Source of the DNA: Myroides marinus
Lineage (GTDB): Bacteria; Bacteroidota; Bacteroidia; Flavobacteriales; Flavobacteriaceae
Assembly: GCF_900109075.1 (NCBI RefSeq)
Contig: NZ_FNYS01000001.1
Span: 434,001-498,000, forward strand
DNA: 64,000 bases
Reading direction: 5' to 3'
Below, one piece after another: positions 6,369 through 55,396 of this stretch. The notes under the pieces were generated by a model. It saw only the letters and a list, made by a program, of their open reading frames with translations. It was not told the DNA's origin and searched no databases. The position numbers and the translations under genes were made by a program. The first letter of the stretch is position 1; each line of letters starts with the position of its first letter.

Positions 6369-8369
6369 TTATTTATAACTACGAGTTACCAATTTAATGT
6401 TTTCATAAACTAAGTCTTCTTTATGAAGCACTGCTTCACTTGGGTTACCTTTGTATTCCCAAGCAGCAACGTATGCGAAGTTCTCGTCATCACGTTTTGC
6501 TTCACCATCCTCAGTTTGGTGCTCTTCACGGAAGTGACCTCCACAAGACTCTTCACGGTGTAAAGCGTCTTTAGCGAATAATTCACCTAATTCTAAGTAA
6601 TCAGCTACTCTTAATGCTTTCTCTAACTCTTGGTTAAAGCTTTCATTAGTACCTGATACTTTCACGTCTTTGTAGAACTCTTCTCTTAACTGAGCAATCT
6701 CAGCCATAGCTTCAGTTAAACCTTTAGCATTACGAGCCATACCTACTTTATCCCACATAATTTTTCCTAACTTCTTGTGGAAGTAGTCAACTGAATGTGT
6801 ACCGTTATTGCTAATTAAATGGTCGATCATACCACGAACATTTTTCTCAGCAGCGTCAAACTCAGGTAAATCAGTTGGGATAGCACCTGTACGAATATCA
6901 TTAGCTAAGTAATCACCAATAGTATATGGTAATACAAAGTATCCATCAGCTAAACCTTGCATTAAAGCAGAAGCTCCAAGGCGGTTAGCACCATGGTCAG
7001 AGAAGTTAGCCTCTCCTAATACATAACATCCTTCGATAGTAGACATTAAGTTGTAATCTACCCATAATCCTCCCATTGTATAGTGAACAGCAGGGTAAAT
7101 CATCATAGGAGTAGTATATGGATCCTCATCAACAATTTTCTCATACATTTGGAATAAGTTACCATACTTATTCTCAACTACGTCTCTACCTAATTTATAA
7201 ACTAACTTAGCGTCGTTCTCATCCATGTGGTGAATACGAGCTTGTTCTTTACCGTAACGCTCAATAGCAGAAGCGAAATCTAAGTATACGGCTTCACCTG
7301 TAGCGTTTACTCCATATCCAGCATCACATCTTTCTTTAGCAGCACGAGACGCAACGTCACGAGGTACTAAGTTACCGAATGATGGATATCTTCTTTCTAA
7401 GTAGTAATCTCTATCTTCTTCAGCGATTTGAGTTGGTTTTAATCTACCTTCTCTAATTGCTACAGCATCTTCCATTTTTGCAGGAACCCAAATACGTCCA
7501 TCGTTACGTAATGACTCAGACATCAAAGTAAGTTTTGATTGGTGGTCACCAGTTACAGGAATACAAGTTGGGTGAATTTGAGTATAACAAGGGTTAGCAA
7601 AATATGCTCCACGTTTGTGTGCTTTCCAAGCAGCAGTAACGTTAGATCCCATTGCATTTGTAGATAAGAAGAATACGTTTCCGTAACCACCTGTACAAAT
7701 AACTACAGCGTGTGCAGAGTGACGTTCAATCTCACCATTGATTAAGTTACGAGCAATAATACCTCTTGCTTTACCATCAACTAATACGATGTCTAACATC
7801 TCATGACGGTTATACATTTGGATTTTACCACGACCGATTTGACGGTTCATAGCAGAATATGCTCCTAATAATAACTGTTGTCCAGTTTGTCCTTTAGCGT
7901 AGAAAGTACGAGATACTTGTACCCCACCAAAAGAACGGTTATCTAAAAGACCTCCGTATTCACGTGCAAAAGGTACACCTTGAGCAACACATTGGTCAAT
8001 AATGTTTTCAGAAACTTCAGCTAAACGGTAAACGTTTGCTTCACGAGCACGGTAATCTCCTCCTTTTACAGTATCATAGAATAATCTGTAAACTGAGTCA
8101 CCATCTCCTTGGTAGTTCTTAGATGCGTTAATCCCCCCTTGAGCAGCAATAGAGTGCGCACGACGAGGTGAATCTTGGTAACAGAAAGCTTTTACGTTAT
8201 ATCCTAACTCAGCTAATGTAGCAGCAGCAGAACCACCAGCTAATCCAGTTCCAACAACAATAACATCAATGTTACGTTTGTTAGCAGGGTTAACTAATTT
8301 AATATGATTTTTGTATTCAGACCATTTTTTATCAAGTGGTCCCTGAGGTATTTTAGAATCTAATTTCAT
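6369..8369 (-). CDS. sdhA: Succinate dehydrogenase/fumarate reductase flavoprotein subunit
   Basis: The 666-aa catalytic subunit of complex II. The FAD-binding Rossmann motif [10 protein letters not shown] is near residues 40-50. His72 in [11 protein letters not shown] is the likely site of covalent FAD attachment. The substrate-site region with HPTCIP and the Arg/His-rich [11 protein letters not shown] block are present. ATG at 8367-8369 ([10 protein letters not shown]) is chosen because the two further codons in frame would need a TTG start, while MKLDSK is the usual Flavobacteria N-terminus. It lies between sdhC (18 nt upstream) and sdhB. Confidence 0.97.
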
Positions 8370-50486: not shown

Positions 50487-50999
50487 CTACACTCTAGACC
50501 TTAAGCCATAACCTACACTGCCTAGAGTCATGAGTAGTAATAAGGTGCGTCCTAGCCAGATCTGTGTCTGTTGCCATGTTGATAACTCTAGCGGTACAGC
50601 TATGGGAATCTTCGTTTCTATGACTCTCTGTTCTTTAATGAATTTCTCTTTCCATTCTAAAAACATTTGTTGAGCCTCTACCTCACAGTCCACCATTAGT
50701 TTATTGTTTACCAACTGTACTTTAGGCGGTTGCAACACCTTGTTTTTACTGCGTTTTATATTTGCGTCTTTTACCACTATCATATTCCCTTGTATTGCTA
50801 AGTCCGCGACATACTGACTCTTATCTGCAGGAATGACTAATACAGTATCTCTCTTAATTTCCTCTACTGACTGAGTGACCTGCTCTGTTGTTGTTGTTGG
50901 TTGCATGTTTATAGCAGTGCGTCGACTACCACAACTCGTTAATAGTAGAGCAACTACCAACACAAAGAGAAACCTCACATATATATACTCTCTTGTCAT
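50487..50999 (-). CDS. Lipoprotein with C-terminal membrane helix (u-spanin-like)
   Basis: A 170-aa protein with an N-terminal lipoprotein signal (lipobox LLTSC, Cys23) and a C-terminal transmembrane helix (about 148-165, GRTLLLLMTLGSVGYG). Lipid at the outer membrane and a helix in the inner membrane at the other end is the topology of unimolecular spanins such as phage T1 gp11, which fuse the two membranes in the last step of lysis. Position supports this: it is the last gene after holin-like and endolysin genes, 12 nt after the latter. Spanin function is inferred from topology and position; no sequence family is recognised. Confidence 0.65.
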   Translation of the reverse strand: MTREYIYVRFLFVLVVALLLTSCGSRRTAINMQPTTTTEQVTQSVEEIKRDTVLVIPADKSQYVADLAIQGNMIVVKDANIKRSKNKVLQPPKVQLVNNKLMVDCEVEAQQMFLEWKEKFIKEQRVIETKIPIAVPLELSTWQQTQIWLGRTLLLLMTLGSVGYGLRSRV

Positions 51000-51011
51000 A
51001 ACTTGTTTTGA

Positions 51012-51470
51012 TTATTTATTAAACACTCTTATAAATCCTTTGTTAATCGACTTTATCTTTCTCTTCTTTTCAGCGACAATATAGCCTTCCCTACTAGCCT
51101 CATCATTTGTATTTCCTTCTATCGTGGTTATGACATCTCCCTCTACATCTACTATTATCCCAGCATGCCCTAGCCCTTTGCCAAAATCCATAATAAACAC
51201 ATCTCCTTTCTCAGGTTTATCTACCCGTAGTACTTTACTACCATTCCACTGTGCTAATACCCCTCCTGTTTTTTGTAGAGGATTCTGTACTCCATAGTCA
51301 TTACATACTTCCTGTACACACCAGTATATAAAAGCCATACACCACGCATAGCCCTCACCTAGCCCTACACTGTTTAGATACTTCTTTACACCAGGTCCTC
51401 TATTGTTCTTGATAGGCCATTCTTGCACATAAAGTTGGCTTCTAGCCTGTTTTATTAACTGTTCTCTCAT
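51012..51470 (-). CDS. CHAP-domain endolysin
   Basis: A 152-aa peptidoglycan hydrolase without a signal peptide. The CHAP catalytic residues are C44 in GEGYAWCMAFIYWCVQ, H102 in GLGHAGIIVD and N120 in IEGNTN. The KGDVFIMDFGKGLGHAGIIV arrangement matches the phage endolysin/amidase-endopeptidase group in Bacteroidota (TIGR02594-like). Lack of a signal peptide means it needs a holin for export. Its ATG overlaps the upstream holin-like gene by 4 nt (ATGA), and the spanin-like gene follows. Confidence 0.85.
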   Translation of the reverse strand: MREQLIKQARSQLYVQEWPIKNNRGPGVKKYLNSVGLGEGYAWCMAFIYWCVQEVCNDYGVQNPLQKTGGVLAQWNGSKVLRVDKPEKGDVFIMDFGKGLGHAGIIVDVEGDVITTIEGNTNDEASREGYIVAEKKRKIKSINKGFIRVFNK

Positions 51471-51823
51471 TCGCTCTTTCCATTTAACTGTTTATACTTT
51501 CTCAATTCGTTAATCAACTCCTTATTTTGTAAAGCAAGTTGCTCCAATCTTTGCTCTAGGTTAATAATTACCTTTTTTGCAGCAGTAAGTTCATCTATCG
51601 CTTCACGATGGAGATTAGACGTTTTATACAGCTCGCTAGTAGCCTCTCTAAGTTTATTACCGAGATCATCCACTATATCTCTATAGTATTTTAATGATTT
51701 CTCCACATTGTCTAATTCAGACATCTGTACCTCAGCCCTAGTCTTTCGTCTAGCCGCCCACCATGTCGCTAATGATGAAACTAAACCTACTACAGCCACT
51801 ATTATCGTTTCATTCATTAGCAT
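51467..51823 (-). CDS. Holin-like protein: N-terminal helix plus coiled coil
   Basis: A 118-aa protein with one N-terminal membrane helix (about 5-24, TIIVAVVGLVSSLATWWA) followed by basic residues (RRKTRAEV) and a long coiled coil (about 35-115, with LEQRLEQLALQNKELINEL). This topology is common for small phage proteins encoded directly ahead of endolysins and often called holins. The start is 51823 or the ATG two codons on at 51817. No other family evidence exists, so holin is inferred from position and topology. The downstream endolysin overlaps by 4 nt. Confidence 0.62.
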   Translation of the reverse strand: MLMNETIIVAVVGLVSSLATWWAARRKTRAEVQMSELDNVEKSLKYYRDIVDDLGNKLREATSELYKTSNLHREAIDELTAAKKVIINLEQRLEQLALQNKELINELRKYKQLNGKSE

Positions 51824-51837
51824 ACTGGTTTGGGTTG

Positions 51838-52135
51838 TTTATACTTTATACATACTTACACATATTACACCTCTTGTCTCTCACAATAAGACATACTCAT
51901 CCTATTCCACTCTAATACAGCAGATCTATTAACCGTTAATGATTATTGATTTTATTACTAAGTCAAATGCTTTAGTTCACATTACTTCTTATAAGATATT
52001 CATATAAACAAGGCCTTGTTTTATCATACGATATGAATACCACTCTTAATTACACTTACAAAGATTGCCTTTTTTCAATCCTTACTCAACTTTCTGTCAA
52101 GTCTCCGAACAACTATGTTCACTTCTTATATTCAC
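51838..52135. other. Intergenic stretch between lysis cassette and DnaA-box cluster
   Basis: AT-rich; holds the palindrome at 52006-52021. No consensus TAnnTTTG promoter on the minus strand for the lysis genes could be found, which makes control by an alternative factor or antitermination conceivable. Confidence 0.5.
52006..52021. promoter_or_regulatory. 16-bp perfect palindrome upstream of the lysis cassette
   Basis: AAACAAGGCCTTGTTT is fully self-complementary and lies 183 nt before the holin-like gene start. It contains the AAACAA/TTGTTT arms also echoed near the S24 regulator. A repressor operator is possible. Confidence 0.5.
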
Positions 52136-52246
52136 TGTTGATAACCTATTCACAACATATCATCTCTATAGTTTATCAACAAAATAAGACACTACAAATC
52201 AACATATTGAACACTTATACACATTGTTAATAACAGTTGTTAATAA
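52136..52246. other. Cluster of DnaA-box-like nonamers (possible replication origin)
   Basis: Within 111 bp: TTATCAACA (52136-52144, minus), CTATTCACA (52146-52154, plus), TTATCAACA (52173-52181, plus), TTATACACA (52215-52223, plus, full match to TTATNCACA), TTATTAACA (52225-52233 and 52238-52246, minus). TTGTTAATAAC is repeated directly 13 nt apart. The stretch is AT-rich and has no supported gene. An origin of an element or chromosome is an inference. Confidence 0.45.
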
Positions 52247-52248
52247 CC

Positions 52249-52473
52249 TTAATCTACCAGATTCTCTAGCTTAGCTAGCTCTCTATACACAGGTGTATTT
52301 AGCACCTCATACAGTGTAGTACGAGATATAGGATATACAGGACAGATATATTTTTTCCATACCACCGTGGTAGGGATATCATCTGTCTTGTATTTATTGT
52401 ACAAATCCAGAATTAGTTTATATCTCTTTAGCTTATTCACTTGACCACTAGTCTTTTTCTTTGTCATAATCAT
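52249..52473 (-). CDS. Small basic phage-like protein
   Basis: A 74-aa lysine-rich protein. The central part (KKYICPVYPISRTTLYEVLNT) reads like a small winged-helix or homeodomain-like unit, with SRTTLYEVL as a plausible recognition helix. Similar short proteins occur near phage regulatory genes in Bacteroidota, but I do not recognise this one. It starts 15 nt past a run of stops and lies 42 nt downstream of a second small open frame. Confidence 0.5.
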   Translation of the reverse strand: MIMTKKKTSGQVNKLKRYKLILDLYNKYKTDDIPTTVVWKKYICPVYPISRTTLYEVLNTPVYRELAKLENLVD

Positions 52474-52515
52474 TTCTTTTACACATTAATCGAAACTTAA
52501 TTTACATGCACTCTA

Positions 52516-52806
52516 CTACAATACTTTCTTCAGTACAGTAAGTTTCAGCTCTAGATCTTTAGATATCTGATACGCTCTTAACTCCTCCTCACTACCTACA
52601 CTTAAATGATATCCCCTCTCTTGATTAATACTAATACGCTCACCTGCGGTAAAATATTCAGTCCCTCTCGTTCGATACAGTGCGTGATACAGATATAATT
52701 CACGTTCTATACTTTGTTTTCTTTTAAGGTCAGTATAGCAGGCTCTCCTCCTATAAAGATGGTTGATGTACTCAGCATTGCATTCATAATTTTTTGGTTT
52801 ATATGG
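52516..52806 (-). pseudogene. Start-less 96-codon open frame, phage-like
   Basis: A minus-strand frame open from 52806 to a TAG at 52516-52518 with no ATG, GTG or TTG start. The translation looks coding (NYECNAEYINHLYRRRACYT, then ERELYLYHALYRTRGTEYF, ending LKLTVLKKVL) with charged helices. ATGs close to the 5' end (52785-52787) are in a different frame, so one frameshift could have removed the start. Alternatively, a non-standard start is used. No family recognised. Confidence 0.45.
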
Positions 52807-52965
52807 TTATTTACTTAAAAAACTACTCAGAATCAAAACATAGTTATTATAAAACCTTAACTAAAGGTACTAACCACAAGGTAAATCTTCTCTTAACAAA
52901 AGTACTTTAATGAATTAAAACCTTAGTTTATCCCTTTAAAATTAGCTATCTATGCTTTTTTTGAC

Positions 52966-52973
52966 TAATTTTG
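52966..52973 (+). promoter_or_regulatory. Likely -7 element of the S24 regulator promoter
   Basis: TAATTTTG, 80 nt before the ATG, immediately followed by the inverted repeat that could be its operator. Confidence 0.45.
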
Positions 52974-52981
52974 CTCTTACT

Positions 52982-53010
52982 TCGAAACAAACATATAAAC
53001 AAAGTTTCGA
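52982..53010. promoter_or_regulatory. Inverted repeat before the S24 regulator (possible auto-operator)
   Basis: TCGAAAC and GTTTCGA are perfect inverted arms 15 nt apart, just downstream of the -7 box; the second arm overlaps an AAACAAAGTTT unit repeated 28 nt later. Confidence 0.5.
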
Positions 53011-53052
53011 TTAAAACTAAAAGAAAACAAAGTTTTTAAAAATATTACTAGA

Positions 53053-53868
53053 ATGGACAGAATACAACGCGTTAATGATGCTATCAAATGGGTCATATTT
53101 GAAGGATTAGCAAAGAACCAGACTGACCTAGCACAAAAGCTTGGCTACACGAAGTCTTCTTTCTCTCAGATAGTGAATGGACGTGTAAACATCAGTGACA
53201 ACTTTATAGAGAATCTTACCAAATTTGCACAGAGTCTAAGTAAACATTGGTTATCAACAGGAGAAGGAAGCATGATATTGACTTCTAACGCTTCTTCTAC
53301 AATACAAGAATTGACAGGAGATCCAATAGGACAAGAATTATATAATTTTGAAGCAACTAATATTACTAAAGACACAGTACCTGAGATTATGTATAATAAT
53401 CATGGTAATAAGTTTACCTTTTACCCTGATGGTCGTATCTACATAGAAGTGCTAAAGATACCTTCTTCAGCCCACGCTTCATACATCACTTGTTACCAAG
53501 ACGATGTACAGCTTATACAGGAGTTTGACACCATACAGTTTAGAGTAGATAAATTCGGATTGGGACATTATAAGGCCTTTGATGTAGTAGGAGACTCTAT
53601 GAATGGTGGTAATATAGAAGATACACCAGATGGTGCAGAAGTATTAGGACGTGAAGTAGGCCGTCACTTATGGGAAGGTGGATTTAGAAATACTACTTAC
53701 GGATTTATCATCATTACTAAAGATGCTACCTTCTTAAAAGATATTACTAACTACGATGAACAGAATGGCCTTATTACACTAAGCAGTCGTAATAAGATAT
53801 ACGAACCTTTTGATTACCCTATAAACAACGTTTATCAGATATTCCACGTTATCAAACGTATATTCTAA
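53053..53868 (+). CDS. Helix-turn-helix/S24 peptidase phage-type regulator
   Basis: A 271-aa CI/LexA-like regulator. Residues 1-65 are an HTH_3 domain (NQTDLAQKLGYTKSSFSQIVNGRVNIS). Residues 130-271 are an S24 domain with the catalytic Ser182 in VVGDSMNGG and Lys229 in FLKDI. The hinge reads IPSSAHASYITC, so the usual Ala-Gly scissile bond appears as Ala142-Ser143, and self-cleavage may be weak or absent. In phages such proteins keep lysis and early genes silent until DNA damage. It is divergent from the small phage-like ORFs and lysis cassette, and ends in a bidirectional terminator. Confidence 0.85.
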   Translation: MDRIQRVNDAIKWVIFEGLAKNQTDLAQKLGYTKSSFSQIVNGRVNISDNFIENLTKFAQSLSKHWLSTGEGSMILTSNASSTIQELTGDPIGQELYNFEATNITKDTVPEIMYNNHGNKFTFYPDGRIYIEVLKIPSSAHASYITCYQDDVQLIQEFDTIQFRVDKFGLGHYKAFDVVGDSMNGGNIEDTPDGAEVLGREVGRHLWEGGFRNTTYGFIIITKDATFLKDITNYDEQNGLITLSSRNKIYEPFDYPINNVYQIFHVIKRIF

Positions 53869-53929: not shown

Positions 53930-55396
53930 TTATTTACACTGAGCATCATAGTTGTCAATTAATTTCTTTAGACCTTCGATAGTGAACAAATCTATTCCAT
54001 CAAAGCTTATTGTCTCACAACTCAAGTACTCTTTAATAGCAGTTACTAACTTATCCTGATCGCTTCTAGTCGCAGCAAAGCCATTTTGAGCATCCTTAAG
54101 TTTTATAGCATATAATCGTTCTGTAGGACTATAATAAAGTCCTAGTTTATTACTTCCATAAATATGTTTAAAGAATGTAGACCCACTACTTAACTTATTT
54201 AAAAAACCTATAGTCTTATTCGCTATATCATAACTAAACCCTTCGTATCTCTCTACTTTTCCATCTTTAGCTAAAGTTACTTCAAAACTTACTTTATCAC
54301 TAGCTTTATAACTAGTAGACTTAATCTTTCCTTTCTCATTAGCAGCATAGACATACACTTTATTTCCATAACTAGACACATCTGCCACATTAGTCCAACC
54401 AGCAGTAGCGTCATCAGCTTTATCTGCATTATCAAAAGCTATAGAGATTTCTCCTTCTACTTTAGTTCCGTTTGCATCTATTAAGAATCCTTTTTCTCTA
54501 CGGATATTAGCATCATTCTCTTTAGCTATACGTTTTTGCTCTGCTAACTTTTCAATTATTTCTGCCATTACTTTATCATCTATTGATTCAAAGTCTATTC
54601 CATTAGCATACATAATTGCTAATAATTCCATCGCATGAGAAGGGCCAGGTATATCTTTAGGTCGAGGCGTTACTACAAAACGCTGATTGTCATACGTAAA
54701 TAAAGTATAGCCAGGAGTAGAAGCTTTATATAAATCCCCCATAGAGAAATTCTCTTTGTAATTAGTCCAGTAACCTATAGGTTGTTTTGTCTTTTTACTA
54801 AAGAACGCATAGATACTTTGATCTTTACTTACCTTGATAACTACATTTCCTATTTCTTTTTTATCGCTATAGATTTTGTTATCAAGACCTATACTTACCT
54901 TTTTCTCCTTAGCGATTGCCATACCTTTTTCTATCACTGCATTTACAGAATCATTGATAGCTTTTACATTGACCATAACATCTTTCTTAGGCTCTGCCAT
55001 TAAAGCATCTAATACCTCATAGTCAATTCCTTTGTCATTCATTAGCTTGTACTGTCCCTTAGTAATTATCGCAAAAAAGACCGTCTCATTACCAATCGCA
55101 AAAGACAAGCTTTCATAAGGTATATTATTACTCTTACCATTGCGCATATCTGTCACGTTTATCACGTGAAACACCTTACCAATTCGAGTATACTCTCTAA
55201 TCTCTTCTAATTTAAAAATATCTTCTCCTTTAGGATTCTTATATACATAAGTCTGGCTATCTAGCTTCTGTATACTCGCAAGAGGATCTGTAGTTTTATC
55301 TACATATACTACACTTTTTTTGATCACTAATTTCTGTGCCATAGAGACTCCCATAATACCAAGAGTTGCACACATAACAAGTAAAAATCTTTTCAT
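53930..55396 (-). CDS. Secreted protein of unknown function
   Basis: A 488-aa exported protein (signal peptide MKRFLLVMCATLGIMGVSMAQ). It is rich in Lys, Asp and Tyr and appears beta-rich, with repeated phrases of the type 'VYVDKTTD', 'IYSDKKEIGNV', 'VYVYAANEKGKI'. A helical stretch (MAEIIEKLAEQKRIAKENDANIRREKG cut here for length) lies near residues 283-310, after which a second beta-rich half begins with FLIDANGTKVEGE. No enzyme motif is visible. A TAATTTTG box lies 26 nt upstream of the ATG (55422-55429, minus). I do not recognise the family. Confidence 0.6.
   Translation of the reverse strand: MKRFLLVMCATLGIMGVSMAQKLVIKKSVVYVDKTTDPLASIQKLDSQTYVYKNPKGEDIFKLEEIREYTRIGKVFHVINVTDMRNGKSNNIPYESLSFAIGNETVFFAIITKGQYKLMNDKGIDYEVLDALMAEPKKDVMVNVKAINDSVNAVIEKGMAIAKEKKVSIGLDNKIYSDKKEIGNVVIKVSKDQSIYAFFSKKTKQPIGYWTNYKENFSMGDLYKASTPGYTLFTYDNQRFVVTPRPKDIPGPSHAMELLAIMYANGIDFESIDDKVMAEIIEKLAEQKRIAKENDANIRREKGFLIDANGTKVEGEISIAFDNADKADDATAGWTNVADVSSYGNKVYVYAANEKGKIKSTSYKASDKVSFEVTLAKDGKVERYEGFSYDIANKTIGFLNKLSSGSTFFKHIYGSNKLGLYYSPTERLYAIKLKDAQNGFAATRSDQDKLVTAIKEYLSCETISFDGIDLFTIEGLKKLIDNYDAQCK

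Follow-up and report, generated by a model that had tools for sequence, protein, structure and literature searches.

Why would a bacterial chromosome keep a compact set of phage-type lysis genes where no related phage structural genes are found? The question is raised by a locus in a stretch of 64,000 nucleotides from Myroides marinus (the window hereafter; G000:C21:434001-498000, on contig NZ_FNYS01000001.1), which belongs to a genome of 4.16 Mb that is 99.89% complete. An original prediction, made from the sequence alone, had proposed here a lysis module under an S24-type regulator and had left two explanations side by side, a prophage reduced to its ends or a retained, DNA-damage-controlled lysis or release device. 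Our analysis favors the second. A Myroides-type chromosome probably captured a phage lysis module and retained it as a repressor-controlled lysis or release device which resembles a type 10 secretion system (T10SS) and whose cargo slot is empty. We call the lineage Myroides-type because the gene order around the module matches that of Myroides odoratimimus CCUG 39352 (L030).

Lysis genes at a shared chromosomal site

Five open reading frames (ORFs) lie where the original prediction had placed them, and its endolysin was recovered with the CHAP domain model (PF05257, 1.3e-12) and with an endolysin family (phrog_9589, 4.8e-13). This CHAP gene (51,012-51,470, minus strand) is present as a single copy in the genome and its product has no hydrophobic export segment. 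A holin is therefore needed, for which the transmembrane (TM)/coiled-coil protein encoded at 51,467-51,823 on the same strand is the candidate; the two ORFs share a 4-base overlap. The best PHROG match of the TM protein was a function-unknown family (7.9e-4), and holin and Rz-like matches reached only about 0.01. The third gene (50,487-50,999, minus strand) encodes a lipoprotein with a lipobox and a hydrophobic C-terminal segment which by its topology looks like a u-spanin. Its lipobox Cys23 and a second cysteine, Cys105, were invariant in 14 of 14 sequences, the window included. The spanin PHROG match was only 0.054, the C-terminal segment of the window protein falls below the hydropathy threshold of 1.6 that was used, and a PDB search with the lipoprotein profile gave nothing useful. 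The two proteins may instead have other roles, the TM protein that of an i-spanin and the lipoprotein that of an o-spanin.

The periplasmic Cys105 differs from what is described for u-spanins, since none of the 58 surveyed has a periplasmic cysteine according to the excerpted text of the survey (PMC6139136). This difference fits a non-lethal function, wall remodeling or protein export by the CHAP enzyme together with its partners in the membrane. The name T10SS has been given to holin, endolysin and spanin clusters located outside phages; non-lytic export is described as the first proposal for them in the excerpted account (PMC10847048), which also fits. However, the same excerpt reports that YenTc is released by its T10SS through lysis, and genes related to those of the window are located in prophages and tail clusters. 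We consider a non-lytic function very improbable.

Tail and head genes, which mark a prophage or tailocin, were searched for as relatives of known genes and were not found. The window gave no match to head, tail and terminase markers that came from prophages and tail clusters with related lysis genes. At the genome level, where unrelated phages were not searched for, the related tail sheath was absent from the window genome and present in 5/5 other genomes, and the related terminase was absent from it and present in 3/3 others, one positive genome in each case being the source of the query. The lack of structural genes described in the original prediction held up in these searches, which rule out a prophage remnant with related structural genes nearby.

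The same chromosomal site was compared between the window, L030, six fetched stretches that contain a related ABC gene, and L281; the genus sample, which puts the window genome and Flavobacterium genomes under a single genus, includes few Myroides. In L030 and L280 the module lies at the same site, between an ABC ATPase gene and a gene whose product we take to be M56-like, and again without structural genes. Such conserved synteny had been named in the original prediction as support for a domesticated module. The site is empty in L277, L278, L279, L282 and L283. In L279 the M56-like gene is also missing, and the ABC gene of L281 is flanked by different genes.

The amino acid identity between window and L030 is 93% for the regulator (93% also with L280), 79% for a conserved 74-residue protein, 89% for the TM protein, 82% for the CHAP protein and 73% for the lipoprotein. 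The ratio of nonsynonymous to synonymous substitution rates (dN/dS) of these five intact genes is 0.014-0.098 against L030 and 0.020-0.121 against L280, compared with 0.062-0.142 for five flanking genes against L030; the ratios are rough because the dS of the module genes is saturated (1.4-3.0), while the low dN itself is solid. Since L280 is close to L030, these are essentially one comparison. The simplest reading would be one capture before the split of the window's lineage from the M. odoratimimus-like one, with retention since then. By its shared site, its low dN/dS and the position of a palindrome in its control region, the module looks long-kept and not randomly decayed.

Repressor, small proteins and control region

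The regulator gene (53,053-53,868, plus strand; 271 residues) is divergent from the module. Its description as CI/LexA-like in the original prediction agrees with a match to the PHROG 4 repressor family (6.3e-15) across residues 21-268. Its helix-turn-helix (HTH) resembles that of the 434 repressor (E 0.0071), and the S24 model is absent among the Pfam matches listed for it. A GDSM motif and one lysine were invariant in 5/5 aligned sequences, the window included; we take this serine and lysine to be the S24 catalytic pair. HTH and Ser-Lys pair together suggest an S24/CI-type repressor with predicted self-cleavage, and for this reason DNA damage is a possible trigger. The DNA-damage control of the original prediction would follow from the repressor type.

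Relatives of the regulator were found in prophages L353, L355 and L356, which from their gene layout are presumably Mu-like. L356 also has a relative of the 74-residue protein, and L355 and L356 hold weak relatives of the 90-residue ORF described below. No IMG/VR relatives of the regulator were confirmed. Relatives with 51-56% identity stand alone, without nearby lysis genes, in five genomes (L347-L351), the L351 copy being short.

Two small phage-like ORFs had also been predicted, one of which is intact (52,249-52,473, minus strand) and encodes the 74-residue protein. The other (about 52,510-52,800, limits approximate, minus strand) is frameshifted, as a reading of its separate frames revealed, and matches an intact 90-residue gene of L030 and L280. 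The 74-residue protein is a regular part of the stand-alone and tail-cluster versions of the module and of many of those in prophages. Its AlphaFold2 (AF2) model consists of four helices with a mean predicted local distance difference test score (pLDDT) of 85. The best match of the model among PDB folds had an E value of 2.3, and neither a PDB profile search nor PHROG gave anything useful. From its position we infer that the protein is an activator of the lysis genes, for which Mu Mor/C and PrtN are analogues.

Upstream of the lysis genes, at 52,050-52,248 (minus strand), lie two promoter/operator-like units of about 102 bp, recognized by alignment with L280 and L030. In these two relatives 102-bp units, each consisting of GAACA-N4-TGTTC and a following promoter-like stretch, are repeated upstream of cargo and lysis genes (positions 7942, 8044 and 8146 in L030; 10707, 10809 and 10911, plus 9589, in L280). 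The units of the window are 70-71% identical to those of L280 and L030 over 193-199 columns, compared with only 49-51% at the four-fold sites of three genes, a contrast that is only indicative because the alignment is gapped. The single exact palindrome of the window's units (52,107-52,120) has an offset of 128 which is identical in window, L030 and L280. Among 15 other loci scanned, none had the exact motif; L068 has a looser match.

These parts would fit a simple switch. The repressor would keep the 74-residue gene off until it is inactivated, possibly by DNA damage, since its Ser-Lys pair suggests self-cleavage. The 74-residue protein would then activate the operator/promoter units and with them the production of the lysis proteins, and a fraction of the cells would burst and release cytoplasmic protein. 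In relatives the released protein would include adjoining cargo, which in Flavobacterium is mostly a toxin-like pair of a 730-residue and a variable protein of about 1000 residues and in Myroides consists of small mosaic proteins.

Cargo in relatives and the empty slot of the window

The cargo was followed in a CHAP scan of species genomes, which covered the best 80 of 85 loci. For the assignment of locus classes, 94 of 154 loci, which had no lipoprotein match, were left out and the view was limited to 10 kb; within L048-L049 part of the genes was covered. With CHAP and lipoprotein genes together, 37 genome loci remained: 21 stand-alone loci with adjacent cargo, 11 with head and tail genes and 5 with tail genes only, the latter including L036 and L039, whose contigs end about 0.9 kb before the CHAP gene. 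Not one of the 37 was a stand-alone locus free of cargo. The stand-alone loci comprise L030 and 20 Flavobacterium-type loci (19 from named Flavobacterium and L037 from a Flavobacteriaceae bacterium). When the reading was extended by another 16-35 kb to either side in five of these Flavobacterium-type genomes and in G123, only module and cargo genes were matched. Two prophage loci that served as controls, one of them a source of markers, gave 64 and 67 marker matches.

A protein of 715-734 residues, here named C730, is present in 18/20 Flavobacterium-type stand-alone loci. It is followed in 15/20 by a protein of 834-1160 residues, here named V, and in three others (L037, L041, L060) by a protein of about 606 residues. 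The remaining two loci hold a subtilase (PF00082, 1.1e-20) with an 1137-residue protein (L052) and relatives of both (L042). One C730 member had no Pfam or NCBIfam match and no PHROG match better than 0.36, the C730 profile had no PDB match, and an AF2 model with a mean pLDDT of 41 was discarded. The 15 V proteins form 105 pairs, 12 of which reach an identity of 50% or more over the first 600 residues. Eight of these 12 align over at least 57 C-terminal residues at no more than 35% identity, two at 63 and 73%, and two have no C-terminal alignment. The first 600 and last 150 residues are, for example, 100% and 35% identical in L045/L049, and 85% and 23% identical in L038/L056. A toxin-deaminase domain (PF14424, 6.4e-10, above the cut-off) ends one of 12 V proteins scanned, and two of nine small ORFs scanned were SUKH-1-like (5.7e-5 and 0.0029, both below the Pfam cut-off); the remaining V C-terminal parts and small neighbors that were scanned had no significant match. 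With its conserved N-terminal part, variable C-terminal part and small ORFs that follow, the Flavobacterium-type cargo looks like a polymorphic-toxin layout.

Some further ORFs accompany the toxin-like pair. In eight loci (L049-L051, L053-L056, L063) a protein of 360-577 residues lies downstream of V. Its versions share their start and show mosaic identities; it is perhaps fiber-like, a Pfam fiber repeat reaching only 0.02 in one member. The small ORFs downstream of the pair in L038, L041 and L044 include repeated ones which we take to be REP-type-transposase-like. In L358 (4862-18260) giant ORFs of 2519 and 1941 residues and a fiber-like ORF come after the pair.

C730 was found in 41/398 genomes of the genus sample. 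Its linkage to the lysis genes was counted for the handles up to G120, taken as 121 genomes that were also searched with CHAP. Of these, 15 match CHAP strongly (with an E value of 1e-44 or better) and 16 match C730; the two matches occur together in 12, no more than about 5 kb apart, the C730 match being partial in G042, G057 and G096. CHAP stands alone in G000, G044 and G076, and C730 stands alone in G009, G107, G113 and G118. Some C730-V pairs that lack the lysis genes lie near response-regulator-like genes, and L322 has two pairs.

The Myroides relatives carry smaller cargo. In L030 two paralogues of 166 and 156 residues (51% identical) are encoded between the 74-residue and TM genes, and a 201-residue protein follows the lipoprotein. 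L280 has the same 201-residue protein (95%) and in the first slot a single protein of 267 residues, whose first 40-50 or so residues are shared with the 166/156-residue pair and whose last 59 are shared with the 201-residue protein; by its sequence the pattern is that of a mosaic. The 201-residue protein had a weak tail-fiber PHROG match (0.0096) and the end of the 267-residue protein matched a PHROG family of unknown function (9e-4). In Pfam the 166-, 156- and 201-residue proteins had nothing below 0.18. No IMG/VR relatives of the 166- and 201-residue proteins were confirmed, and the 201-residue protein had no match in phage records.

Several observations weigh against the proposed retained device. 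No cargo gene or remnant was found in the window (best E 0.25). A search of nine genomes with the 267-residue protein at E 0.1 found no match in the window genome and recovered both cargo-bearing genomes, one of them the query source. C730 is absent from the window genome as well, and the small 90-residue-type ORF is frameshifted. The holin and spanin assignments are based on topology, with non-significant matches. Given the saturated dS, a recent loss of function is possible; two flanking genes have a dS of 0.66-0.95, below that of the module genes, and the module may therefore have arrived at the site separately or been replaced there. The exact palindrome occurs at seven places in the genome, compared with 13 for a reversed-pattern control, so that it is not enriched, and the other six places lack a promoter unit; on both grounds, no distant regulon was found. 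Finally, the stretches read of L322, L323, L324, L326 and L327 contain C730-V pairs and no homologues of the lysis genes, and the toxin-like pair is thus not tied to this module alone.

The missing cargo and the frameshift would also be expected of a relic, that is, a module that lost its cargo, has started to decay and is now inactive, the more so as cargo is present at every one of the other 21 stand-alone loci in the genome scan. The five intact genes with their low dN and the conserved operator region argue against this, and we regard a relic as rather unlikely. Alternatively, the module could lyse the cell for cargo encoded elsewhere in the genome. S-type pyocins can be located apart from lysis genes, and the lysis-free C730-type pairs of other genomes point in the same direction; yet the window genome has neither C730 nor a 267-residue-type protein, nor is there a second operator unit among its exact palindromes. 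Such release in trans appears distinctly unlikely. For the retained device that we prefer, the empty slot means that an unlinked or bulk release of cytoplasm, or a recent loss of cargo, must be assumed. Of the two explanations in the original prediction, a retained device is nevertheless better supported by the shared site, the low dN/dS and the stand-alone class, while the window copy gives no support for any cargo.

A broader reading, to which we give an even chance, is that of a family of lysis-released, phage-repressor-controlled polymorphic toxins in Flavobacteriaceae that was tamed from phages at least twice. The relatives' 730-residue protein and its variable partner of about 1000 residues, or the small mosaic proteins in Myroides, would be freed by bursting, and the window would hold a bare release module with an open cargo slot whose contents could be swapped when the tandem promoter units recombine. 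The most striking part lies in the relatives, and the window copy may be a bare or failing version. To our knowledge, the known lysis-coupled release systems (T10SS, pyocins, colicins) are all from Proteobacteria. If true, a version that recurs in Flavobacterium and Myroides and swaps its cargo would give Bacteroidota one more means of bacterial warfare or protein release beside the type 6 and type 9 secretion systems (T6SS, T9SS). It would also explain orphan endolysins and open up large toxin-like families with unknown carriers, and the cargo-free copy of the window would test whether such modules persist for lysis alone.

Probable descent from phages and likeness to known systems

A tree was calculated from joined CHAP and lipoprotein sequences (310 columns; 64 copies reduced to 55 distinct ones). 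L125, on a cut contig, was labeled stand-alone, and tail-only and head-only loci were labeled phage, except for the Myroides hisS cluster. The stand-alone modules of Flavobacterium type fall into a single clade (24/24) with an ultrafast bootstrap support (UFboot) of 100 among phage modules, the deeper nodes that place it there being weak (61-80). The Myroides stand-alone modules form a separate clade (3/3, UFboot 99) within a Myroides clade that also contains tail-cluster and prophage versions (9/9, UFboot 99-100), where the sister group of tail clusters and prophages has a support of only 50. The plain reading of this tree would be two separate captures from phages. The phage link in the original prediction is supported by this grouping and by the same lysis genes in prophages and tail clusters.

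A contractile tail cluster with sheath and tape measure genes in L031, L032, L110-L113 and L284 uses the same lysis genes and the 74-residue protein. The cluster belongs to Myroides odoratus-type genomes, lies beside hisS wherever a locus extends that far (four loci), and showed no related head genes; it is likely a tailocin. These tail clusters and the prophages of Myroides and Flavobacterium thus share related lysis genes and the 74-residue protein with the window, from which they differ by sheath and tape measure genes and, in prophages, by terminase and portal-like genes.

The stand-alone class would act like the T10SS of Serratia and of Yersinia entomophaga (YenTc), with which it shares lysis genes without virion genes and, in relatives, large adjoining proteins. 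It differs in its Bacteroidota hosts, in its CI/S24-type repressor, in cargo of unknown families and in the cargo-free window copy; the excerpted account (PMC10847048) calls the YenTc system SOS-insensitive. In the window the T10SS gene set would consist of the PF05257 endolysin and, by topology and weak matches, of holin and spanin candidates, without related structural genes. Adjacent cargo is present at 21/21 other stand-alone genome loci and missing here, and the window copy is therefore not filed as a full T10SS member.

S-type pyocins and colicins combine a repressor and activator, lysis genes, a toxin and immunity. The proposed logic here is similar, leading from a repressor through a small activator to lysis, with a variable toxin and immunity. 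In contrast to them, the 74-residue protein has no sequence relation found to known activators, and the cargo has no Pfam relatives except single domains. The MuF/Bxa polymorphic toxins of Bacteroidales are likewise phage-linked and accompanied by immunity genes in Bacteroidota, but in the excerpted report they lie within prophages on a MuF domain (PMC11699363), whereas the stand-alone loci have no related structural genes. No MuF domain was among the Pfam matches listed for 12 V proteins. TANFOR toxins are also large and variable and occur in Flavobacterium and relatives; according to the excerpted description they are proposed T9SS substrates, most with signal peptides (PMC7073777). An NCBIfam scan of three V proteins gave no TANFOR match, the presence of a TANFOR model in the release being unchecked. 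None of the papers listed in the literature searches, which had thin coverage of subscription journals, described this system.

From left to right the locus in the window consists of the ABC ATPase gene (plus strand), the genes for lipoprotein, CHAP protein, TM/coiled-coil protein and 74-residue protein and the interrupted small ORF (all minus strand), followed by the regulator (plus strand), the gene of a secreted-looking protein of 488 residues and the M56-like gene (minus strand). The gene for the 488-residue protein (53,930-55,396) adjoins the regulator in the window and in L030 and not in L280. Matches to this protein were found in 36/398 genomes, the window genome counted, and those outside the window genome are of low identity.

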